Shown here in pieces: positions 21,051 to 53,639 of a stretch of 64,000 nt of DNA; position 1 is the first letter of the stretch, and each line of letters opens with the position of its first letter. The DNA is from a virus. The notes below the pieces were generated by a model, which saw nothing but the letters and a program-made list of their open reading frames with translations, made no database searches and had not been told where the DNA came from. Where the stretch lies: positions 1-64,000 of the IMG/VR virus record IMGVR_UViG_3300017917_002795. One strand, written 5' to 3'. Made by a program: the position numbers and the translations under genes.

Positions 21051-21281
21051 AAAAGACCCCATCTAGGTATGGGTATTGATATATGTTTTTCTAGCACGGG
21101 TAAGATTTTTGCTATATAGGTGCTCTTTATTAGGATATGCGGTGCATATAATATATTCGTGCCGGCCCTGTATCTCCTAGCAGCTCCCTGGTATCTCCCG
21201 GTACTGCCAATACTGCCACCTATCTGCCAATACTCCCTAACAATCCTATTAGCACTTATTAGAACTTATTATCTAGGTAAC

Positions 21282-21292
21282 GTATATTTATT
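21282..21292 (+). promoter_or_regulatory. Late-type promoter GTATATTTATT
   Basis: Three nt before the ATG of the kinase-like gene; start of the leader-tagged gene cluster. Confidence 0.55.
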
Positions 21293-21295
21293 AGT

Positions 21296-22024
21296 ATGAT
21301 ACGACTTAAAGACTTACTGCAAGAACGCATTGTGTATCCTCTAGACGTAGTGCAACGCGTTGCGCAGAGCATGGGTGAATCTGTAACTGAGGAATTAGGC
21401 CGTGGAGCCAATGGTGTTGCGTATGCCTTGGAATCAGGACGTGTCTTAAAGATTACACCGGATCAAGCTGAGGTAGCACTTGCAACTCGTTTGCGCACCA
21501 AGCGGTTATTCAAGCACATCGTAAATGTGTATGATGTGCGCAAGATGGCAGCGTCATACACAAAGGCTGTTGAATTTACTGCAGGTGACAATTGGGTGAT
21601 CATCATGGACCATGTAACACCACTCACAGATAATCATCGTCGCATATGGAATGAGATACGTTATACCTATATGGATCTGCGTGTTTCAGATGCCGAGTTA
21701 CGTGCACGTATACCTAAATTAATAGCCAATGACTTTAAAGCAGAACGAGATGATGCATTTATTCAGCGCATTATGCCACAGCGCAAAGGTCTCATGCGAG
21801 ACTTTAACGAGTTGCGCATTGTGCATCGCGAAGCACATGGGGCTAATATGGGATGGAATCGACATGGTAGCTTGGTGCACTTTGATGCTTGGCAACATGC
21901 CCATTACACCAAAGTACCTGTGTGGATGCACCATGCAGCCAAAACACAAGGCTATGAAATGCCGCGCAACATGGATCCTTATAAAAAGTCGTTGGGCACG
22001 GACATAAACCCGGAGACACTATGA
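21296..22024 (+). CDS. Kinase-like protein with capsid-targeting-like leader (242 aa)
   Basis: The product starts with the leader MIRLKDLLQE shared by a set of unrelated proteins here. After it come kinase-fold landmarks: a glycine loop LGRGANG (34-40), a VLKIT lysine (K52), a catalytic-loop-like HREAHGAN (177-184) and HFDAW (D197) in place of DFG. The catalytic Asp of HRD is Glu here, so activity is not assured. Known precedent: T4 packages the Alt enzyme behind a 10-residue leader and injects it. I infer a packaged host-modifying kinase or pseudokinase. ATGA overlap with the next tagged gene. Confidence 0.7.
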   Translation: MIRLKDLLQERIVYPLDVVQRVAQSMGESVTEELGRGANGVAYALESGRVLKITPDQAEVALATRLRTKRLFKHIVNVYDVRKMAASYTKAVEFTAGDNWVIIMDHVTPLTDNHRRIWNEIRYTYMDLRVSDAELRARIPKLIANDFKAERDDAFIQRIMPQRKGLMRDFNELRIVHREAHGANMGWNRHGSLVHFDAWQHAHYTKVPVWMHHAAKTQGYEMPRNMDPYKKSLGTDINPETL

Positions 22025-22551
22025 TACGATTCGCCGACTTGCTGGCCGAAATTACATTGGGAAACATTCAACCATATGCTCGTCAGTTCCCATGGGAATC
22101 AATGTCAAATATCGATGATGCATACGAGGCTCGATTCATGGCTGATGGCGTTGAAATAGTAATGACCATGATGCATGGAGGTGACAATGAATGGTATTTT
22201 GCGTTTTTAATGCCCACTGCACAAACGAATGCTTGGAACAGCGGACGGACTACTTCACATTCTAAAAGTGGTGCAGTGGGACAACTTAACTATTTACGGC
22301 TCATACGTACCGCTGGAGAAGCGATACTAGATTTTTGCACAACACACACACCCGGAGCTGTTAATATATCTGGAGCTGATAGTTCCGCGGACAAAGAATC
22401 GCAAAAGACACGTATGTATGCTGCATTTGTTAGAGACAACGCTGCACGTTTAGCAGCAGCAGGATACACCACAATGCATCGCGGAGATCAATTGTGGTTA
22501 GTGCGTCGTAGTGATGCTGATGCAACGGGAGTAGAATCAGAGTCCCGTTAG
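22021..22551 (+). CDS. Leader-tagged conserved phage protein (176 aa)
   Basis: Starts MIRFADLLAE, the same leader type, and overlaps the kinase-like gene by ATGA. The second half (INISGADSSADKESQKTRMY, then LAAAGYTTMHRGDQLWLVRR) recalls a recurring phage family with a 'KRxRIY...GY' end; role unknown. A predicted alpha/beta globular protein of about 165 residues would remain after leader removal. Region 22552-22623 after it is GC-richer and empty. Confidence 0.7.
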   Translation: MIRFADLLAEITLGNIQPYARQFPWESMSNIDDAYEARFMADGVEIVMTMMHGGDNEWYFAFLMPTAQTNAWNSGRTTSHSKSGAVGQLNYLRLIRTAGEAILDFCTTHTPGAVNISGADSSADKESQKTRMYAAFVRDNAARLAAAGYTTMHRGDQLWLVRRSDADATGVESESR

Positions 22552-22623
22552 GGGCGTGAGTCAGCGGAGGCCTGTAGGGCTGCAGCGGACGAGCGTATTC
22601 ATACCGGGTTAATTTGTTATTCG

Positions 22624-22633
22624 GATATTTATT
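22624..22633 (+). promoter_or_regulatory. Late-type promoter GATATTTATT
   Basis: Three nt before the next ATG, same spacing as at 21282. Confidence 0.55.
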
Positions 22634-22636
22634 ATT

Positions 22637-23140
22637 ATGATACGACTACGAGACTTATTGGAACAATTGGGACAACTAGATTCAGTACGAGATGAAATTC
22701 TCCGACGTGTGCCATTTTTAAAATCGTTCAATGTTTCTAATCATCCTCGCGATCCTAAACGTCTTGAAGCGCAACGCGTTGTATACAATAAAGATGTACG
22801 AACTACGATGGGCGATGACATAATTATATTTCCACAATTCAATGTATCATCTAACGTAACGTATTATCCGCATGTTGTTGATGCATATACATTTCATAAC
22901 TTTGTCGTTAAAAATGAAATACATGCAATGCAACCCAAGGATATGGATGATTTAACATTTCGTGTATTTTTATATGCAAAGAAATCGTTGGAAGATAAAT
23001 TGTCATATAGTAAAGAGTTAATGGTGCCAACCGGAGAACCTATACCGACGCAAGATATGAATGACATTGTTAATGCAATGAATAAAACATTTTTTGAAAT
23101 TGAAGAATATACTAAAAACCATAATATAGATTTGTTCTAA
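22637..23140 (+). CDS. Leader-tagged hypothetical protein (167 aa)
   Basis: Leader MIRLRDLLEQ with likely cut after LLE. The remainder has no motif I recognise: a basic stretch FNVSNHPRDPKRLEAQR, beta-rich centre and acidic helical end (MNKTFFEIEEYTKNHN). The stop shares a base with the next tagged gene's start, so the cluster is translated as a unit. Confidence 0.7.
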   Translation: MIRLRDLLEQLGQLDSVRDEILRRVPFLKSFNVSNHPRDPKRLEAQRVVYNKDVRTTMGDDIIIFPQFNVSSNVTYYPHVVDAYTFHNFVVKNEIHAMQPKDMDDLTFRVFLYAKKSLEDKLSYSKELMVPTGEPIPTQDMNDIVNAMNKTFFEIEEYTKNHNIDLF

Positions 23141-23508
23141 TGATACAGTTAAAACATTTACTGGAGAATTTGGATACTTCGAAAATCAAAATTCGTAGTA
23201 CTCTAGTTAATGGTTTGCTGGTTTATTTGCCTACATATGATGGTGAACGTATGGGAGCATTTCGTTTACGTCCTCATGGTACGGATTGGCAAATTGATTC
23301 TGTTTTGCTTTACGATCGATTCAAAGGCGCGGGCATTGGTAAAGGGATGTATCGTTTCATTATCAAACATTTAGCACAACAACAGAAAAAATTGTATTCT
23401 GATAAGATGCAATCTCAGGAAGCACTTAATGTTTGGCAGAGTTTAGTTACTGCTGGACTTGCCATTCCTTTAGAAGGTGGAACATTTGTATCGAAGGTTA
23501 CAGCATGA
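23140..23508 (+). CDS. Leader-tagged GNAT acetyltransferase (122 aa)
   Basis: Leader MIQLKHLLEN. The core shows GNAT motif A: IDSVLLYDRFKGAGIGKGMYRFIIKHL, with the acetyl-CoA pyrophosphate loop R-F-K-G-A-G-I-G-K-G (60-69), then LYSDKMQSQEALNVWQSLV as motif B. It should transfer an acetyl group from acetyl-CoA to an amine. Target unknown; if packaged, a host protein or small molecule early in infection is likely. The fold is small but complete. Confidence 0.8.
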   Translation: MIQLKHLLENLDTSKIKIRSTLVNGLLVYLPTYDGERMGAFRLRPHGTDWQIDSVLLYDRFKGAGIGKGMYRFIIKHLAQQQKKLYSDKMQSQEALNVWQSLVTAGLAIPLEGGTFVSKVTA

Positions 23509-23951
23509 TATCACTTAACGGCATACTTACGGAACTTTTAATTGAACAGATTGCTGCTTCGCAAGTTGATCCCGTGCTAGACGGAGAAAATGGAAAGTTT
23601 TGGCACGTTACATTTGATTATACAGGCCCAGATGGCGTTACTTCTCAACGTTGGTGTCAATTATATCAGCGAAACATTACTACGCGTGGCAATGGCGCTA
23701 TATCTGCATATCAAGTATCACGTGATGGTCAATTAACAGGACCAGGTGGTGAATCATATGAAGGATGGAGAATATTTCGTTTAGACCGAATGCGCAACCT
23801 TAAAGTATCGCGTGTTCCTTTCTATCAGCCTCAAGCAGGGTTTAACCGTACTGGTAACCAAACTCCAAGTATCCGACAAACTGTTAAGATTGCTCCGGTT
23901 GGAACTTATCAATATAAGAATCCAAATTATCAGCCTAAACAAACTACTTAA
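23505..23951 (+). CDS. Leader-tagged WYL-like domain protein (148 aa)
   Basis: Start at 23505 (MISLNGILTE), ATGA-coupled; a longer in-frame reading begins inside the GNAT gene. Residues 33-105 read HVTFDYTGPDGVTSQRWCQLYQRNITTRGNGAISAYQ, then EGWRIFRLDRMRNLK, matching the WYL domain pattern (nG...aYq...gwr.frldrI). WYL domains sense ligands, often nucleic acids or nucleotides, in regulators of defence and DNA repair. The C-terminus is proline/asparagine-rich and probably flexible. Confidence 0.65.
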   Translation: MISLNGILTELLIEQIAASQVDPVLDGENGKFWHVTFDYTGPDGVTSQRWCQLYQRNITTRGNGAISAYQVSRDGQLTGPGGESYEGWRIFRLDRMRNLKVSRVPFYQPQAGFNRTGNQTPSIRQTVKIAPVGTYQYKNPNYQPKQTT

Positions 23952-23968
23952 AACTTTCTTGCATTTTT

Positions 23969-24000
23969 CTTGGTTTGCATCAATTTTTTTCTTATATTTA
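23969..24000 (+). promoter_or_regulatory. Host-type promoter CTTG-N20-TATATTTA
   Basis: CTTG 23969-23972 and TATATTTA 23993-24000 before the micro-gene at 24020. Confidence 0.6.
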
Positions 24001-24019
24001 AGGTATAAAAATTAAACAT

Positions 24020-24118
24020 ATGAAAAAAGTATTCAAAACATGTTTGGTTATTGCAGTGTTTTTAGTTGCAATATATATCAAGTACAAATATATGCATGTA
24101 TATTATATAGTTGAATAA
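24020..24118 (+). CDS. Micro membrane protein (32 aa)
   Basis: A 32-codon frame with a basic start (MKKVFK) and one membrane segment (TCLVIAVFLVAIYI), followed by a tyrosine-rich tail. Own host-type promoter. It is an early-class insert within a late-class cluster. Confidence 0.5.
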   Translation: MKKVFKTCLVIAVFLVAIYIKYKYMHVYYIVE

Positions 24119-24179
24119 AAAATATATTATAAAGTTTCTGAATACACAGTAACTTTTTTTCAATTCTACGATATATCCT

Positions 24180-24190
24180 GATATTTATGG
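24180..24190 (+). promoter_or_regulatory. Late-type promoter GATATTTATGG
   Basis: 22 nt before the next ATG, with AAAGGATAGGGGG as ribosome site. Confidence 0.45.
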
Positions 24191-24211
24191 TAAATGAAAG
24201 GATAGGGGGTG

Positions 24212-24475
24212 ATGGGACCGGAAGACATTGCGAAATTGACTCGAGATTTCGAACAGTTACGAGAATGTTATATACATTGGTTGGATCGTAATTTATATGA
24301 TTTAGCAGAAGAAGGTTCTATATCACATTATGATTATCAGCATGTTTTATTTGATGCATATGATTTTACCATAGATCCAACAGATTTCATCGATTTCATA
24401 AAACAAAAACATGGATTAGATACTGCTGAAGATATATTGCAATTTTTAAGTAGATTCTTGAAATGTATGGAATGA
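24212..24475 (+). CDS. Hypothetical acidic protein (87 aa)
   Basis: ATG at 24212 preferred; a GTG lies one codon upstream. Helical, acidic product (EDIAKLTRDFEQLRECYIHWLDRNLYDLAEEG, then IDFIKQKHGLDTAEDILQFLSRFL). No leader of the tagged type. No family recognised. Confidence 0.7.
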   Translation: MGPEDIAKLTRDFEQLRECYIHWLDRNLYDLAEEGSISHYDYQHVLFDAYDFTIDPTDFIDFIKQKHGLDTAEDILQFLSRFLKCME

Positions 24476-24486
24476 TATATTTATAT
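24474..24486 (+). promoter_or_regulatory. Late-type promoter GATATATTTATAT
   Basis: Overlaps the previous stop and lies 20 nt before the next start. Confidence 0.5.
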
Positions 24487-24506
24487 GTGTAAAAGGAATT
24501 GAAAAA

Positions 24507-24878
24507 ATGTTAAAACTTAAATCTTTAATTAAAGAAGGTTTTGCGTGGGAACGCAAAGCAGATGGATCTTTGCCTACCCTTAAAGATGCTATAGCAGTAC
24601 ACGAAGCCAATCAGAGTGTTAAACCTGATTATATCGACCTAGATAAAGATGGTAATAAAAAAGAGCCTATGAAAAAAGCTGCTAAGGAAGTAAATGAAGG
24701 TAAAGATGATTCTATTCTAGACTTAGTTTCTAGAGCCGAAGATATGGTTCAAAATCTACGTAGAAATATGGCTACTAATAGTGTATTACAACGTGAAGAG
24801 AAAATGGGATATCTTCGAGCTTATGACGAATTGCTAGATGTATTGAGTGATATTGGCTACCAAGCTGAAATGGAATAA
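24507..24878 (+). CDS. Leader-tagged protein with EF-hand-like loop (123 aa)
   Basis: Leader MLKLKSLIKE followed by G, a textbook gp21-type (I-x-E) junction. Then KPDYIDLDKDGNKKEPMKKAAKE, whose DxDxDGxxxE loop resembles a calcium-binding EF-hand or dockerin loop and recurs in phage proteins near head genes. The C-terminal half is a long helix. Possibly a virion-internal or scaffold-like protein. Confidence 0.7.
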   Translation: MLKLKSLIKEGFAWERKADGSLPTLKDAIAVHEANQSVKPDYIDLDKDGNKKEPMKKAAKEVNEGKDDSILDLVSRAEDMVQNLRRNMATNSVLQREEKMGYLRAYDELLDVLSDIGYQAEME

Positions 24879-25577: not shown

Positions 25578-25721
25578 ATGGCAAAGGTTAAAGCAAATAC
25601 CGTAAGTACACATATTAAACGTCCAAAAGTTAAACGTCCGGGCGTGCACGCAAAATCAAAATCATCTACAAACAAAACCAGTAAAAATTACGTTAAGTCA
25701 TATGTAGCTCAGGGAAGATGA
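25578..25721 (+). CDS. Small highly basic phage protein (47 aa)
   Basis: Very basic frame of 47 codons with the pattern KRPKVKRPGVHAKSKSS...KTSKNYVKSYVAQGR, which recurs in many tailed phages (KRPGxHAKxKxSxxKxSKNYKKxYxGQGR). Likely binds DNA or RNA by charge; role unassigned. ATGA overlap with the next leader-tagged gene. Confidence 0.75.
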   Translation: MAKVKANTVSTHIKRPKVKRPGVHAKSKSSTNKTSKNYVKSYVAQGR

Positions 25722-27646
25722 TACGGTTAAAATACATATTAGAGCAAGCTAAAAATGCAAAACAGTCATCGAAACCAAAAAAACTAAATGTTCTTTTTGT
25801 TGGTGATGCTGATACAACTGCTACATTTAGTTATGCTCGAGATATTTTAAAAACCAGAGAAGTTAACGGCAATATTTCAGCTGCTAACATTTCAATTGAA
25901 CAATTTCCTAGATTATTGCAAACTGCAGATATGAAAAAATATAATGTTATCTGCATTATGTATAGCAATATTAAACCCGGTAAAACTACACGCGAAGAAG
26001 AAGTGTTACAACAAATGTACACAGATGCCAAAGATTCTGGTGCTATGTTGATTGCCATAACGCCGACTACCAAAGAATTTGTCGCTTATGGCCATATCAC
26101 ACACGAAAACAATGAAAGCATTGTGCAATGGGTATTAGAACAAAACATTGCAGACCATGTAATCGATGCATATAAATTAACGCGTAAGAAAAACTTTTTC
26201 AATAAAGATGGATTACTATTAAACGCAGAAGGACATGAACTCATTGCTCGTCAAGTTTTACGAGTATTAAATGAAATTGATTCGGATGTTGACGCTGCGG
26301 CAATTGAACGAGAAAAACAATCGGAGAAAGAAAAATCACGTAAAACGAAACGTAAAGATATTAAAGGTAAAGTTAAAAAAGCCGTTGAATTTAAACGCGG
26401 ATCCAAATCTCCTGATTTAATTGAAATACAACAACGTCTAGTTAAATTAGGATATGAAATAGATCCCGTAGAAATCAAACAAGGTTTATTCGGTGAAACT
26501 ACGGAAACTGCCGTAATGCAATTTCAAACAATAAATGATTTATCGGTAACTAGTAAATTAACAAAAACTGATATTAATGCAATAAAGTCATCTGGTGCTA
26601 AAAGTTATGGTACACTGTCATATATGGCAAAATCATTGGTTAATAAACCAGTTGAATTGCCAAAAGAAGAACCAGATTCTAAAGAACCAGATACACTATC
26701 AACACAATTTATAAGCGGTGAAAAATATGATGCTGAAACTTCAGATGATATTATTACACAAGCAGCTGCAATACTGCGATCTGAAGAAGGTTTTTCTACA
26801 AAACCACATTGGGATGTAAATAACTGGAGAATTGGATACGGTAGTAGCACTATTACAGATGCATCTGGTAAAGTAGTCAAACTATCATCAAATCGATCAG
26901 AACGTCCAGCTATTAAAATCACCCAACAAGATGCTGAACGCGATTTACAACGCAGATTACGAGATGAATTTATACCGCATACCAAAAAAAGTATTGGGAC
27001 TGGTGTTGATAAATTAAACAATGCTACTATTGCTGCATTAACATCAGTAACATATAACTACGGAACTTTGCCATCATCTGTAGTTCAAGCAGCTAGAACT
27101 GGTGATATTGAATCAATTGCCGATGCTGTTAGATCTTTAAGTGCTAATCGTAAAAGAAGAAATCGAGAAGCAGATTGGATCCAAAATAGTAAATCTAGAG
27201 AAGTCTCAAAAACTATAGCTACTGGAAATAATGGTAAACTGTCAGCTGGTGAATTAGTTAGTATTGGTGATGGGTTTAAATTAAATGCAGATGCTGCTGC
27301 TGATTTTCTAGAAATGAAAAAAGCTGCTAATGCTGATGGTGTACAATTTAAAATAACTGATGCATATCGACCATATGAAATTCAAGATGCTATTTTTGAT
27401 TGGGAACGATATAATAGAACCGGAGAAAAAAAGAAAAAAGGAACAAATGTAGCTGCAGCATTACCAGGCACATCCAACCATGGATGGGGTAAGGCAATAG
27501 ATGTTTCTCCAGCAGCTGCTCAGCAATGGATCAAGAAAAACGGATATAAATATAATTGGTCATGGTATGAGGGAAAGTCGCTTAATCCGCCAGAACATTG
27601 GCACTTTACATGGACTACAGATTCATCTAAATTAAAAGAATGGTAG
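25718..27646 (+). CDS. Leader-tagged multi-domain cell-wall hydrolase (642 aa)
   Basis: Domains in order: leader MIRLKYILEQ; an SGNH-hydrolase-like domain (about 22-185) with GDAD at 29-32 instead of the catalytic GDS and block V LNAEGH (H173), so probably inactive; a lysine-rich linker (195-228); a peptidoglycan-binding repeat (230-292); a GH24 lysozyme domain (345-495) with RSEEGF, WRIGYGS and a T/N-rich helix; and an M15 D-Ala-D-Ala peptidase (505-635) with SNHGWGKAID (H588, D595) and PPEHWHF (E626, H629). It should cut both sugar and peptide bonds of peptidoglycan. The leader suggests it rides in the virion, unlike a holin-released endolysin. Confidence 0.85.
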   Translation: MIRLKYILEQAKNAKQSSKPKKLNVLFVGDADTTATFSYARDILKTREVNGNISAANISIEQFPRLLQTADMKKYNVICIMYSNIKPGKTTREEEVLQQMYTDAKDSGAMLIAITPTTKEFVAYGHITHENNESIVQWVLEQNIADHVIDAYKLTRKKNFFNKDGLLLNAEGHELIARQVLRVLNEIDSDVDAAAIEREKQSEKEKSRKTKRKDIKGKVKKAVEFKRGSKSPDLIEIQQRLVKLGYEIDPVEIKQGLFGETTETAVMQFQTINDLSVTSKLTKTDINAIKSSGAKSYGTLSYMAKSLVNKPVELPKEEPDSKEPDTLSTQFISGEKYDAETSDDIITQAAAILRSEEGFSTKPHWDVNNWRIGYGSSTITDASGKVVKLSSNRSERPAIKITQQDAERDLQRRLRDEFIPHTKKSIGTGVDKLNNATIAALTSVTYNYGTLPSSVVQAARTGDIESIADAVRSLSANRKRRNREADWIQNSKSREVSKTIATGNNGKLSAGELVSIGDGFKLNADAAADFLEMKKAANADGVQFKITDAYRPYEIQDAIFDWERYNRTGEKKKKGTNVAAALPGTSNHGWGKAIDVSPAAAQQWIKKNGYKYNWSWYEGKSLNPPEHWHFTWTTDSSKLKEW

Positions 27647-32304: not shown

Positions 32305-32781
32305 TTAAATTCCACCAGCACCTAGAATACCAGAGTCCGACCATTCTTCGTTTGAGTTAAATTGCTTTAAATGCCTTTCGATACCACCGGTGATTTTTTC
32401 ATTTTTTGGATCAAATAATGATCGGAATGAATTTGGTTTCGTTTCTTCCATATCAGTACTTAACCACGCGAGTATAGTTTTATATTTCATTTTATTAACT
32501 AATGCTAATACTTGATCGTATATTTGTTTATTTTTAATACCTCGTACGACTGCGTTATAAACTGACATATTATCGGTACCTAAACCAGCCATGGCAGTTT
32601 TTATTTGCTGAATAATTGCATTAGGATTTAATTGTTCCAATAATGCTTTACGTACTTCTAAATACAAACCATGTTGTTCAATAGTTTCCATAATTGAGTT
32701 AACAACTAATTCTTTCTGTGCAGCTTCTGACAAATTTTTAGTTCCAAAACGCATCATGTTTTCTGCTAATGTGTTTTTCAT
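32305..32781 (-). CDS. Annexin-like protein with NLSE leader (158 aa)
   Basis: Minus-strand gene with ribosome site AAAGGA. It starts MKNTLAENMMRFGTKNLSE, nearly the same 19 residues as the minus-strand gene at 33541. Residues 56-112 (IIQQIKTAMAGLGTD...YNAVVRGIKNKQIYDQVLALV...ILAWLSTDM) resemble one annexin repeat with the GxGTD calcium loop and an acidic residue about 40 positions later. Annexins bind phospholipid; phage relatives are unassigned. The leader ends L-S-E, fitting a prohead-protease site. Confidence 0.65.
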   Translation of the reverse strand: MKNTLAENMMRFGTKNLSEAAQKELVVNSIMETIEQHGLYLEVRKALLEQLNPNAIIQQIKTAMAGLGTDNMSVYNAVVRGIKNKQIYDQVLALVNKMKYKTILAWLSTDMEETKPNSFRSLFDPKNEKITGGIERHLKQFNSNEEWSDSGILGAGGI

Positions 32782-33540: not shown

Positions 33541-34383
33541 TTATTTTATTTTATTAACATTAACCATCTCACCATAATGCCATGTTAGAACTTCGATATA
33601 ATCTGCATATCCCTTATATTCTGGACAATATCCATCCCCTAATCTTATTCGAATATAATCAACTCCAGCTTTTAATTTTGAACCATTTATATGAAGACTT
33701 TTTGGAATAACCGTTGGATCATCAAATGCTGCTAAAGCTTGATCTGCCCCAGCCCCAGCACCTCTTGCAACAAACAAATCTGATTGCTGTTCTATAGTAC
33801 GATCAGCTGATTCAGATGCTGTACCGTCACTTTGTATAAATGGTTTATTTGGATCTCCAGAATAGTTTGTGGTAACTGGCCGGTTAAATAAATATAAGTA
33901 TGTTGTACCAGATTTTAAATCTGCGTTGTTAGTTACACTACCATAATGTCCAACATAACAAGCTCTTGTCATAAATGAACCTACAATAATCTTATCTGTA
34001 TTATTATTTTCTAACTCTAGAAATCCGTAACCACCAGCACCAGCAACAGCTCCAGATTTAGGATCCCATAATACAAGTTTTTTTGCAAAAACTAAAATAG
34101 TTTTTCCAATTATTTTATTAAGATTGCCCTGATAACCTCCTATATATTCGATCATTGTTTTCCATAATCCATCAGACTTTAAAAACGATCGATTTGGATC
34201 AGATTTCGAAGGAGTAATTGAGATTCCAGGAACGGTCATTAATGATTTTGCATGAGTTCCGGTAATATTAGACTTACCAGAATCAGTTGGTTCTGTTGCC
34301 TGTTCTGCTAATTTAGATCGATCAGTTTCAGAAAGATTTTTTACGCCAAATCTAAGTAAATTTTCTGCTAATGTGTTTTTCAT
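33541..34383 (-). CDS. NLSE-leader protein, copy 2 (280 aa)
   Basis: Start at 34383 (MKNTLAENLLRFGVKNLSE) by match with the paralogous leader at 32781; an in-frame ATG nine codons upstream precedes the ribosome site and is unlikely. After the leader the protein differs fully from its neighbour: a beta-rich region of 240 residues with DPNRSFLKSDGLWKT and DPNKPFIQSDG repeats, VLWDPKSG and GYGFLELENNN. Possibly a virion protein. Converges with the secreted-protein gene, 4 nt apart. Confidence 0.7.
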   Translation of the reverse strand: MKNTLAENLLRFGVKNLSETDRSKLAEQATEPTDSGKSNITGTHAKSLMTVPGISITPSKSDPNRSFLKSDGLWKTMIEYIGGYQGNLNKIIGKTILVFAKKLVLWDPKSGAVAGAGGYGFLELENNNTDKIIVGSFMTRACYVGHYGSVTNNADLKSGTTYLYLFNRPVTTNYSGDPNKPFIQSDGTASESADRTIEQQSDLFVARGAGAGADQALAAFDDPTVIPKSLHINGSKLKAGVDYIRIRLGDGYCPEYKGYADYIEVLTWHYGEMVNVNKIK

Positions 34384-34408
34384 ATTTTTTTCCTTTGTGG
34401 TTACTTTC
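34361..34408 (-). repeat. 48-bp leader repeat, copy 2
   Basis: Identical to 32759-32806, covering ribosome site, start codon and first seven codons. Confidence 0.9.
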
Positions 34409-34420
34409 ATATAAATATAC
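34408..34420 (-). promoter_or_regulatory. Late-type promoter GTATATTTATATG (minus strand)
   Basis: About 25 nt before the minus-strand ATG at 34383. Confidence 0.55.
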
Positions 34421-37708: not shown

Positions 37709-38149
37709 ATGGATAGAAACGAAGAATTATTTAAAGGTACTACATTTGCTGATTTGATGTCTGATGTATATCATAATAGCAAGAAAAAAGATCGTCAGAT
37801 AACGCAACTGATTGCTCAGTTACAGCCGTTAATTAAAAATGCATCTGATGCAACTATCATCGTTCCTTTAATTAAGGAATATCTAGATGTTGCTGTTAAG
37901 AATGATGATCATCTAGTTAAATTAACTGCGATTGTTCAGCGTTATATTTCAACTAAACAAACTATTGCAGGTGCTGATTCATTGCTTAGCGATGAAGAAA
38001 AACAACAATTGATTCGAATGGCTGAAACTACATTAGAAACGGAATTGGAAGATGAAATTCGAGATCTTAAACAATTAGATGTAGAAGACGCAAATTTCCA
38101 GAACAAAATAAATCAAGCCAAAAGCAAGTTGACAGGTAATAATGAGTAG
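37709..38149 (+). CDS. Hypothetical helical protein at head of baseplate block (146 aa)
   Basis: All-helical, charged product (TTFADLMSDVYHNSKKKDRQITQLIAQLQPLI, then LLSDEEKQQLIRMAETTLETELEDEIRDLKQLD). Position and late promoter suggest a baseplate or tail-assembly role. Overlaps the hub gene by 8 nt. Confidence 0.7.
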   Translation: MDRNEELFKGTTFADLMSDVYHNSKKKDRQITQLIAQLQPLIKNASDATIIVPLIKEYLDVAVKNDDHLVKLTAIVQRYISTKQTIAGADSLLSDEEKQQLIRMAETTLETELEDEIRDLKQLDVEDANFQNKINQAKSKLTGNNE

Positions 38150-51465: not shown

Positions 51466-53097
51466 ATGGCAGAATCTAAATTAAAACAACAAGATACGTA
51501 TCAAGGAATATATCCTACAGTTTTTAAAAAGATTGATGCTACAGATATTAACGTTAGTCCGTTTCAATCATATAAAACATGGACATTTACAAACAGTAGT
51601 CCTACTAGTAGTATACAAATATTAAAAGGTATATATTCAGATCCAAATTTTTTACCAGCATTAGGTACTAACTTAACGTATAATGATGCTGTGAATAATG
51701 ATGGATCATTGCAAACGCTTACATATTTTTCTATAAATCATTTTTATTATAAATACAAAACAGAACCTACTAAAACTTTTGGTCCTACAGATCTATCTCG
51801 AACTAAAAAAGTTTTATATGAATCTGCTTCTGTTTTTTCTTTTCCACAACGACAAATTGGCGATGGTATTAAACCAGGATCTTTTAAAATAAACGGAAAT
51901 TTCCAAGCTTCGGGTATTTACGGGGTTGGGATTTATGGAAATAGTATATATGGTAATGCTATAAATTCAAATGTTACTATTGTTTCTGATAGATATGGTA
52001 ATTTAATACATTCAGAATATCCAACAGCATCGATTATATCTAATGTAATGTGGTATGAAGGATTTAATGAATATTTTGATACAACACGAGTTGCATATTC
52101 ATCAGCTAATGTTTCATATATTCCAGGAATTTCATATAATTCAGGATCTGGATCATATGGTTATCAAGCTAATTTTGCTGGTGATGGATATATTAAAACA
52201 TCAATCGATGGTTTATATGATCGCAATCATAATTATGCAATTTCATTTTTTATTAAAGCAGAAAATAATACTGCAAATTCTAACATCATTTTAACCAAAT
52301 CTACCAGTTCATTAACACCTCAGTTTCCATTTAAAATTGAATTAACACCAAATAATTACATTGATTTTACGATTGCTGGAAGTACATCAGTTAAAAATAA
52401 TATCACATCTTCTATTGCAATGAATTCAGTTGAACGGCATATATTGTGTCAGAAATCTGGAAGTGTTATGCAGTTATGGATTGATGGTATATTGCATGCT
52501 TCAGCTAGTAGTACGTTTTTAACAGATACCAATTCACCATTAGTAGAATCTGCGCGCATTGATAACGCAGATCCGGTGTTTATTGGTGGATATGAGACTT
52601 CTGGTAGTGGATTAGTTGGTAATATAGATGAAATTCGAATTTATAATAAAGCATTAACATCCACAGAAATTGGTTATTTATGTGATATTAATTCCAATTT
52701 GACATTCATGCAAACTAATCATGTGGGTAACGTATTTTCTAAACAAGGAATAGCCGTAATTTCATCCCCGGATTATCGTTTTGATTACATCGTTAATAAC
52801 AATTTTGAAATTTCATACCGAAGCACCAAAACAATTCATGAATTATCGGTGATTGCTAATGTTAATTCAGGTGATTTTAATATGTCAACCAATTTAACAT
52901 TAACTAAAGATGATGATCAAACATATAAATCATTTGTTAGTAGTAGTAGTTTTTCACCATACATAACTACAATTGGATTATATGATGGCAATGGCCAATT
53001 ATTGGCAGTCGGAAAATTAGCTCAGCCAATACGTAAGCTTACTGATGTTGATATGAATTTATTGGTTCGTATTGATTTAGATAGGAATATATCATGA
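51466..53097 (+). CDS. LamG-domain tail protein (543 aa)
   Basis: N-terminal KQQDTYQGIYPTVFKKIDATDINVSPFQ, a middle with glycine/tyrosine turns (ASGIYGVGIYGNSIYGN), a LamG/concanavalin-like domain at about 225-400 (YAISFFIKAENN, QLWIDGILHASAS, GNIDEIRIYNKALTSTEI), and a C-terminal module (YITTIGLYDGNGQLLAVGKLAQPIRK...LLVRIDLD) shared with the previous protein. LamG domains bind carbohydrate, so host-surface binding is likely. Its stop overlaps the next tagged gene by ATGA. Confidence 0.8.
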   Translation: MAESKLKQQDTYQGIYPTVFKKIDATDINVSPFQSYKTWTFTNSSPTSSIQILKGIYSDPNFLPALGTNLTYNDAVNNDGSLQTLTYFSINHFYYKYKTEPTKTFGPTDLSRTKKVLYESASVFSFPQRQIGDGIKPGSFKINGNFQASGIYGVGIYGNSIYGNAINSNVTIVSDRYGNLIHSEYPTASIISNVMWYEGFNEYFDTTRVAYSSANVSYIPGISYNSGSGSYGYQANFAGDGYIKTSIDGLYDRNHNYAISFFIKAENNTANSNIILTKSTSSLTPQFPFKIELTPNNYIDFTIAGSTSVKNNITSSIAMNSVERHILCQKSGSVMQLWIDGILHASASSTFLTDTNSPLVESARIDNADPVFIGGYETSGSGLVGNIDEIRIYNKALTSTEIGYLCDINSNLTFMQTNHVGNVFSKQGIAVISSPDYRFDYIVNNNFEISYRSTKTIHELSVIANVNSGDFNMSTNLTLTKDDDQTYKSFVSSSSFSPYITTIGLYDGNGQLLAVGKLAQPIRKLTDVDMNLLVRIDLDRNIS

Positions 53098-53639
53098 TAC
53101 GTTTAAAACATTTATTAAATGAAATTTCACAACCAGAAATTCAGCGTTTATTAGAAAAAATCAAACAAAAACAATTTCGTTTATTAGCAACCGGTGATAA
53201 TGGTCGTGTTTATGAAATTGATGGGGAAGATAAAGTTTTTAAAATCACACAAGAACGAGATGAATTAGATGTTGCTTCGGTTATTGTAGGTCGTTGGACT
53301 GAGTTTACTACTTTTATTCCAGTATATTACATTAATAACCGGGAATCAATGTATATCATGGCTAATGCTAATCAATTAACTAGTTCTGATAAAATGTATA
53401 TCGATGAATTTATGTCTAGATATAAAGATTTTGCACGTGCAGAAGGAGGCGAAGTTTCAATTTTTGATTTTTTAGATGCAGATGGTGCTCGTAATACTGA
53501 TGTTAAATTAGTGAATTTTTTACGGTCATTACAAACAGATGTTAGCAAAATAGGTATTGATGAATTAGATTTAGATCTTGATTTTAGTTCTAATAATGTT
53601 ATGATTTGGAATGGTAAAATGGTATTAGTTGATTGGTAA
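53094..53639 (+). CDS. Leader-tagged kinase-like protein, second copy (181 aa)
   Basis: Leader MIRLKHLLNE, then a compact kinase-like fold: glycine loop LLATGDNGRVYEI (30-42), KVFKIT with K50, catalytic-loop-like DLDFSSNN (D163, N168) and VDW (D180) replacing DFG. It is shorter than the copy at 21296 and ends right after the DFG-like motif, so it lacks the lower C-lobe. Phosphotransfer is possible but unproven. Placed at the end of the tail operon, under late control. Confidence 0.65.
   Translation: MIRLKHLLNEISQPEIQRLLEKIKQKQFRLLATGDNGRVYEIDGEDKVFKITQERDELDVASVIVGRWTEFTTFIPVYYINNRESMYIMANANQLTSSDKMYIDEFMSRYKDFARAEGGEVSIFDFLDADGARNTDVKLVNFLRSLQTDVSKIGIDELDLDLDFSSNNVMIWNGKMVLVDW

Follow-up and report, generated by a model that had tools for sequence, protein, structure and literature searches.

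Could a phage carry small kinases in its head and deliver them to the host together with its DNA? The question is raised by two ORFs of a viral sequence whose products, here named P1 and P2, were described in an initial annotation as leader-tagged, kinase-like proteins with altered catalytic residues that could be injected kinases or pseudokinases. The window, which is the whole stretch of 64,000 nt analysed here, corresponds to bases 1–64000 of a 140,594-base IMG/VR virus record. It includes a gene for a gp6-like baseplate wedge protein, and an S77 prohead protease gene (E=1e-32) is found at 71247–71738 of the whole record. As both genes are present, the source appears to be an uncultured T4-type myovirus.

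Much of the initial annotation is borne out by the translations. Both proteins contain a glycine loop, a V-x-K-I-T lysine, a catalytic-loop Asn and a metal Asp, P1 has HRE in place of HRD, and neither has a true DFG. The starts of the two ORFs, which had been placed about 32 kb apart in different operons and behind the same leader, are 31.8 kb apart in separate gene clusters, and the two leaders are closely alike (Table 1). We consider it probable, from sequence, models and analogy, that both proteins are miniature kinases targeted to the capsid and injected, and that they would act on host proteins.

Table 1. Positions in the window of P1, P2, their key residues and the other leader-tagged ORFs
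Feature	Position	Strand	Basis or remark
P1, leader-tagged kinase-like protein, HRE variant, 242 aa	21296..22024	+	ORF, AF2 model, kinase matches, profile homology to P2 family
P1 leader MIRLKDLLQE, capsid-targeting-like, LxE at residues 8–10	21296..21325	+	
P1 Lys52, beta3 Lys (VLKIT)	21449..21451	+	Invariant in alignment A3, 23 rows
P1 Glu179 at catalytic-base position (HRE)	21830..21832	+	Glu in L103 too
P1 Asn184, catalytic-loop Asn	21845..21847	+	Invariant in A3
P1 Asp197, DFG-equivalent metal Asp (FDAW)	21884..21886	+	Invariant in A3
Leader-tagged ORF (MIRFADLLAE), 176 aa	22021..22551	+	
Leader-tagged ORF (MIRLRDLLEQ), 167 aa	22637..23140	+	
Leader-tagged ORF (MIQLKHLLEN), GNAT-like	23140..23508	+	Below the curated cut-off of Pfam Acetyltransf_1 (E=0.0032)
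Leader-tagged ORF (MISLNGILTE), 148 aa	23505..23951	+	
Leader-tagged ORF (MLKLKSLIKE), 123 aa	24507..24878	+	
Leader-tagged ORF (MIRLKYILEQ), 642 aa, endolysin/peptidase-like	25718..27646	+	Matches PHROG endolysin families (best E 1.9e-12) and, below cut-off, VanY-type peptidase models
P2, leader-tagged miniature kinase (putative), 181 aa, C-terminal DW	53094..53639	+	ORF, IMG/VR relatives, AF2, Foldseek/VIA kinases, dN/dS
P2 leader MIRLKHLLNE	53094..53123	+	Residues 1–8 pLDDT under 50
P2 Lys50, beta3 Lys	53241..53243	+	Invariant in alignment A1, 43 rows
P2 Glu57, helix-C Glu by place in modelled helix 55–64	53262..53264	+	Invariant in A1
P2 Asp163, catalytic Asp	53580..53582	+	Invariant in A1
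P2 Asn168, catalytic-loop Asn	53595..53597	+	Invariant in A1
P2 Asp180, metal Asp, one residue before chain end	53631..53633	+	Invariant in A1

Conserved residues and relatives of P1 and P2

P2 includes the motifs GDNG, VFK50IT, LDLD163FSSNN168 and VD180W, the last of which is followed directly by the stop codon. The H and R of HRD and the F-G of DFG are absent, a single Trp follows the metal Asp, and there is no activation segment or further C-lobe. At least 144 relatives were confirmed in IMG/VR, and in the best 80 of the 144 the chain invariably ends in DW, one residue past the metal Asp; the 82-row P2 set consists of these 80 and the window protein twice. Alignment A1, made up of P2 and 42 relatives drawn from the best 80, has a mean column identity of 69%, and G34, K50, E57, D163, N168, D180 and W181 are invariant in its 43 rows. 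The median dN/dS of the family is 0.126 (81 gapless pairs, 80–97% identical). As the full catalytic set is invariant at this level of identity, P2 appears to be under more constraint than nucleotide binding alone would need. By sequence, P2 resembles a kinase that is very short but intact, and it is probably active as one. When 84,980 prokaryote genomes were scanned, 40 stretches matched one of two P2 patterns and none was confirmed, and a tblastn search with a P2 relative returned five Bacillus phage records annotated as serine/threonine kinase with E values of 2–7, which are not significant.

The corresponding motifs in P1 are GRGANG(40), VLK52IT, HRE179AHGAN184 and FD197AW. A single relative of P1 could be retrieved, a protein on a viral contig (L103; the same protein is found in L123) that is 30–31% identical to it (blastp E=3e-26). 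It was found with a general DNA pattern for the N-lobe, which matched 91 stretches, 80 of which were read, and which yielded a set of phage kinases. A further P1-like protein, A0A6J5PG87, is present in BFVD (33% identity). No other relative of P1 was returned by a scan of IMG/VR or by searches starting from L103 and from alignment A2, and a tblastn search of cultured phages returned just three primase records (E=0.9). A pattern built on FKHIVNVYDV found one unrelated locus, and all eight matches to an HR[DE]xHxxNMG pattern were due to chance. No P1 relative was seen on 19 P2-bearing contigs, which is uninformative by itself.

Alignment A3 (23 rows) consists of P1 and 22 other sequences, and 18 of the 25 domain rows obtained with the N-lobe pattern entered it; L123, L137, L174, L198 and L210 were left out as duplicates or close relatives, L135 as a fragment and L212 because it is very long. 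K52, N184 and D197 of P1 are common to all 23 rows, and G37 and E59 are found in at least 90%. The column of the catalytic Asp contains Asp in 15 rows, Glu in two (P1 and L103) and Phe or Tyr, directly preceded by an Asp, in the remaining six. As Glu179 has been kept in L103, at 31% identity, P1 is unlikely to be a simple product of decay, a comparison that involves two sequences only, and the Glu may lower or alter the activity of P1. Thus, the altered catalytic residues of the initial annotation hold for P1, where the Asp of HRD has been replaced, and do not hold for P2, which retains its catalytic Asp.

A pattern for the C-lobe gave 27 rows, several of them non-kinase, with Asp in 26; the single Glu row (L211) is an out-of-frame chance match. 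The pattern has three residues between two Gly where P1 and L103 have four, and its spacing excludes both proteins, so these rows are no test of how frequent Glu is in P1-type proteins.

Several of the phage proteins found with the N-lobe pattern have features of their own. In L106 and L161, a small kinase domain is fused to an IGRFQPFHxGH stretch, which we take to be nucleotidyltransferase-like, and in L107 a small kinase domain is followed by a C-terminal stretch that is ADP-ribosyltransferase-like by eye. The kinase-like domains of L115, L127, L155, L158 and L173 have Phe or Tyr at the catalytic position and Asp one residue before it, and L127 includes two such domains in one protein.

Predicted folds and the relationship between P1 and P2

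The AF2 model of P2, for which the input was its own family only (A1), has a pLDDT of 90.8 and a pTM of 0.85. For P1 the values are 81.6 and 0.80, and the alignment behind this model includes sequences partly gathered by kinase motifs. The 45 residues that follow D197 in the P1 model form one predicted helix (207–218) and a low-confidence end. When the P2 model was compared with the PDB using Foldseek, the first matches were phosphotransferases, namely APH(2''), CK2, RIO1, CDC7 and PRPK (best E 9e-5), though with low TM-scores (query-normalised 0.32–0.48 among the matches listed). With VIA-align, all 50 matches listed for P2 are kinases, with Z up to 9.2 (MPS1, rmsd 4.2 over 127 residues), and the matches listed for P1 are kinases or APH, with Z up to 10.7 (ULK4, rmsd 4.1 over 150). 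ULK4 is a pseudokinase. The BFVD matches of P2 comprise one close relative (67% identity) and, further down the list, numerous viral proteins annotated as kinases, along with small phage proteins that are uncharacterised. The models and fold matches thus predict a bilobal kinase fold for P1 and P2 alike.

Alignment A4, which was derived from A3 by removing L173 and the four rows of the P2 family and so consists of P1 and 17 phage kinases, matched kinases when used to query PDB sequences (best E=1.4e-4), and 59 of the 60 chains listed, the best 60 of 320, have kinase, phosphotransferase or EGFR/receptor-kinase names. Among PDB sequences, no kinase was matched with a useful score by the P2 profile (S100-A9 came first, E=0.0079; for the kinase effector Lpg2603 E was 0.4) or by P1 as a single sequence. 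None of the Pfam and NCBIfam kinase models, Pkinase included, matched P1 or P2, and Pfam Pkinase matched one of the 23 A3 members (E=0.00063). SseB, the sole NCBIfam row for P2 below E=0.01, scored 17.9 bits where the cut-off is 350 and was taken as chance. P1 and P2 are not canonical Ser/Thr/Tyr kinases in the sense of Pfam Pkinase.

A pairwise blastp comparison of P1 and P2 gave a weak match (E=0.004, leader included). When the P2-family profile was aligned with A4, which contains no P2 sequence, hhalign returned a probability of 98.7 and E=2.5e-16 over 168 columns. In a tree, the P1 pair and the P2 group are separate, with support of 98/94 and 100/100, respectively, and many of the inner forks are weak. 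The separate supported groups do not fit a recent duplication, and we conclude that P1 and P2 represent two lineages. Judged by models and profiles, they are homologous, miniature protein-kinase folds.

The initial annotation had left room for pseudokinases. The most credible of the alternatives, which we nonetheless consider unlikely, is that these are head-packaged kinase folds that bind nucleotides and serve as nucleotide-sensing scaffolds or perform some other chemistry, with P1 the better candidate. It would account for the Glu at the base position of both P1 and L103, for the Phe or Tyr found there in six more of the 23 rows, with Asp one residue earlier, and for the end of the P2 chain directly after the metal Asp. 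However, even the most divergent rows of A3 all retain the Lys, Asn and metal Asp, and the whole catalytic set of P2 is invariant across A1. The loss of nucleotide-binding residues that we looked for among the relatives was not seen, the residues being conserved instead, and for P2 in particular a pseudokinase is unlikely.

The leader and its genomic setting

The leader pattern M[IL][RKSQ][LF]xx[LI][LI] is found at 8 of the 370 Met positions in the window from which 60 aa or more run to the stop. Residue resampling predicts 0.07, a contrast that is somewhat flattered as the pattern was devised after the leaders were seen. All eight tagged ORFs are on the + strand, which carries little weight as 320 of the 370 Met positions are too. 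The pattern asked for no acidic residue, and [LI]xE falls within residues 7–10 in all eight tagged ORFs versus 3 of 88 other ORFs, with the Glu at residue 10 in five of the window leaders and at residue 9 in three (22637, 23140 and 25718). With the first 12 residues removed, the eight tagged proteins do not match one another at E<=0.01, and the same leader has therefore been joined to very different proteins. The fourth leader-pattern match of the record, at position 79677, opens 12 codons only and is not a gene. A signal peptide was considered and dropped, as the leader is charged and [LI]xE comes after it. Two different-looking ORFs on the minus strand (32305–32781 and 33541–34410) begin with a second kind of leader, MKNTLAENxxRFGxKNLSE, which contains LxE too.

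Among 59 distinct P2-family proteins, the leader has L at residue 4, L or I at residues 7 and 8 and E at residue 10 in every case. Residue 2 is also always I, residue 5 is K in 58 and residue 3 is R in 53, and positions 6 and 9 drift, with 8 and 11 different residues, respectively. The codons vary synonymously. L064 and L067, in which the leader begins with V (apparently a GTG start), are outside the 59.

The first 10 residues of phage T4 IPIII are enough for packaging, mutations show that capsid targeting depends mainly on residues 4 and 7 and processing on residues 8 and 10, and gp21 cleaves after L/I-X-E (PMC9026906). The N-termini of T4 IPII and IPIII are both MKTYQEFIAE. An L/I8-x-E10 motif together with hydrophobic residues at 4 and 7 is found in all 59 distinct P2 proteins and in P1. 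That all four T4 functional positions fall within the conserved positions of the leader is the strongest evidence available here for capsid targeting, though the mapping leaves the conserved residues 2, 3 and 5 of the P2 leader unexplained, and the three window leaders with Glu at residue 9 depart from it.

A prohead protease of the S77 type was found on all nine P2-bearing contigs picked for their length (36–160 kb) and on the 74-kb contig of L103 (E=9e-35). With the wider phage kinases it is present on 4 of 20 contigs versus 3 of 18 controls, the latter being contigs whose pattern hits did not read as kinases, and there is no enrichment. Delivery from the head is thus argued for the P1 and P2 lineages only. 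An [LI]xE lies near the start in 10 of the 13 stand-alone wider phage kinases and in 43 of 97 ORFs of other kinds, a weak contrast (Fisher p=0.027).

P1 heads a cluster of leader-tagged genes (21296–24878, then 25718), among which ORFs without the tag intervene at 24209 and 25003. A small hydrophobic ORF (21120–21299, 59 aa, GTG start) overlaps the start of P1 by 4 bases. P2 overlaps the gene that precedes it (51466–53097), also by 4 bases, and this gene, which shares its strand with the gp6-like baseplate gene, lies approximately 10 kb downstream of it. Among the loci of the 80 relatives, the preceding gene is present in at least 77 and an endonuclease downstream in at least 68, both lower bounds as many loci are short. 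The overlap with a conserved gene some distance behind the baseplate gene suggests that P2 is probably made late, and late synthesis would fit packaging. In the 73 loci with at least 400 bases after P2, the ORF directly 3' of it is the endonuclease in 8 and another ORF in 65, and [LI]xE is found in residues 3–24 of 34 of the 43 distinct downstream ORFs versus 70 of 225 control ORF starts. P2 thus appears to be a fixed member next to a variable slot that is often occupied by a leader-tagged-looking gene. ORFs of up to 943 aa, and leader-like starts such as LLxE, LFEQ and IVLEQ, were seen in this slot (L001–L080). A search of PHROGs with ten genes adjoining P2 gave no informative match.

Two kinds of upstream sequence recur in the window. 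TATTTAT begins 19–33 nt upstream of the + strand starts at 37709, 40093, 42967, 49457, 51466, 58403 and 61808, and likewise before 4982, 24209, 24507 and 27675. It is nearer, at 11 nt, before P1 (21296) and 22637. Many of its starts are in the structural-gene half, and it could be a late promoter. Closely similar stretches ending in ...TTTATATTATAAATAAAAAATAAGAGAT or similar are found upstream of 16578, 19017, 19607 and 20681, and these might represent an early-promoter cassette.

The position of P2, downstream of structural genes and beside a variable, often leader-tagged gene, also bears on what its target might be. This setting would suit packaged kinases whose substrates are components of the phage or virion, or small molecules, instead of host proteins, and the first three Foldseek matches are APH(2'') entries, which are small-molecule phosphotransferases. 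We think such targets less likely again than a kinase fold that is no protein kinase, as a capsid-targeting leader should be needless for action in the producing cell, the PDB matches mix protein kinases with APH-type enzymes, and the kinases of T7 (PMC5512222) and JSS1_004 (PMC12345140) are described as targeting host proteins. The weakest of the alternatives, by a little, is that the leader is another sorting or translation-start signal, e.g. for baseplate or tail assembly, which would accommodate its presence on the 642-aa endolysin-like protein, possibly tail-associated, the place of P2 after structural genes and the conservation of leader residues 2 and 5 with no known T4 counterpart, but is improbable given that it is the amino acids that are conserved while codons change synonymously, that residues 4, 7, 8 and 10 mapped in T4 IPIII are among those conserved and that the S77 protease is present.

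Proposed delivery and comparison with known systems

Under the reading we prefer, that of capsid-targeted, injected kinases, the 10-residue leader would recruit P1 and P2 into the prohead core, the S77 prohead protease would cut after [LI]xE to free the mature enzyme inside the head, and the enzyme would be injected together with the DNA. Host proteins, for instance those of transcription, RNA processing or defence, could then be phosphorylated before phage genes are expressed. P2 would be the conserved, active enzyme and P1 a rarer accessory kinase with Glu at the base position and possibly altered or low activity. As the leader is like the T4 head-packing tag, P1 and P2 probably enter the cell together with the DNA and would modify host proteins immediately. 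The computational support covers the kinase fold, the retained ATP and metal residues, the leader architecture and the S77 gene; from these we infer late synthesis, packaging, cleavage, injection, catalysis and protein substrates. Injection, as put forward in the initial annotation, is indirectly supported by the T4-like leader and the S77 protease. A bolder version, to which we would give somewhat less than an even chance, is that widespread uncultured T4-like phages deliver a 171-residue mature working kinase from the head, that in some of them a second kinase-fold enzyme, which has Glu as its catalytic base, is injected as well, and that host phosphorylation precedes phage transcription.

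With injected enzymes, a phage can affect its host ahead of any protein synthesis of its own, and T4 Alt is the classic case. Injected truncated kinases have been predicted among polyvalent proteins, in the available text of that literature with no tie to a capsid-targeting signal (PMC5512222). A conserved leader joined to a single-domain kinase would provide a concrete and cheaply testable system for injected phosphorylation, and the leader may allow the head cargo of such uncultured phages to be listed. P2 also poses a structural question, namely how a kinase could function, and hold a protein substrate, with almost nothing past the metal Asp.

Kinase cargo is not named in the T4 internal-protein literature as far as its accessible passages extend, PMC9026906 included, and 'protein kinase' is absent from the available main text of a jumbo-phage survey (PMC7824862) and from the few papers that treat most of these subjects together (phage virion and internal proteins, capsid targeting and mass spectrometry). 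No leader-tagged phage kinase is among the literature matches listed (titles and the starts of abstracts, a scope outside which most subscription journals fall).

The closest parallels for delivery are T4 Alt, IPI, IPII and IPIII, which share with P1 and P2 an N-terminal leader with key residues at 4, 7, 8 and 10, L/I-x-E processing, predicted in P1 and P2, and a diverse cargo. The T4 leader is likewise 10 residues long in IPII and IPIII. The cargo differs, Alt being an ADP-ribosyltransferase and IPI an anti-restriction protein, whereas P1 and P2 are kinase-like.

The enzymes have parallels elsewhere. T7 gp0.7 is expressed early and has a C-terminal shutoff domain. A4 aligns with the T7 gp0.7 kinase over 67 N-lobe columns (hhalign 91%, E=9e-7); the match of P2 is weak (PHROG 15752, E=0.0087, P2 only; 0.6% by hhalign with A1). 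The kinases of T7 gp0.7 and JSS1_004 resemble P1 and P2 as phage kinases with a short core, and the kinase domain of JSS1_004 phosphorylates and inactivates DndFGH (PMC12345140). JSS1_004 is described there as expressed early and as having a C-terminal shutoff domain, whereas P1 and P2 carry the leader and are too short to accommodate such a domain.

Iyer et al. (2017) reported truncated kinase domains in phage polyvalent proteins, predicted to be injected, together with stand-alone versions, and kinases and GNATs are included in the four protein-modifying classes of these proteins (PMC5512222). As far as the accessible part of that account describes them, the polyvalent-protein kinases are like P2 in that the C-terminal subdomain has been lost and the ATP and phosphotransfer residues kept. 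P1 shares the truncation, with 45 residues left after D197, and has Glu as the base, and both P1 and P2 differ from the group in being single-domain proteins with a T4-type leader. Two of the marks given for the polyvalent group, which also include a Glu N-terminal to strand 2, are missing. The Gln of the last N-lobe strand is absent from P1 (VIIMDH) and P2 (MYIMAN), though L115, L158 and L173 have it, and the His-Asp insert is absent, HRE being contiguous in P1 and LDLD of P2 having no such His. As these two marks fail, we do not place P1 and P2 in the polyvalent group. The best reading, drawn by analogy, is that P1 and P2 are cousins of the polyvalent-protein and T7 kinases that would be delivered in the manner of T4 Alt.
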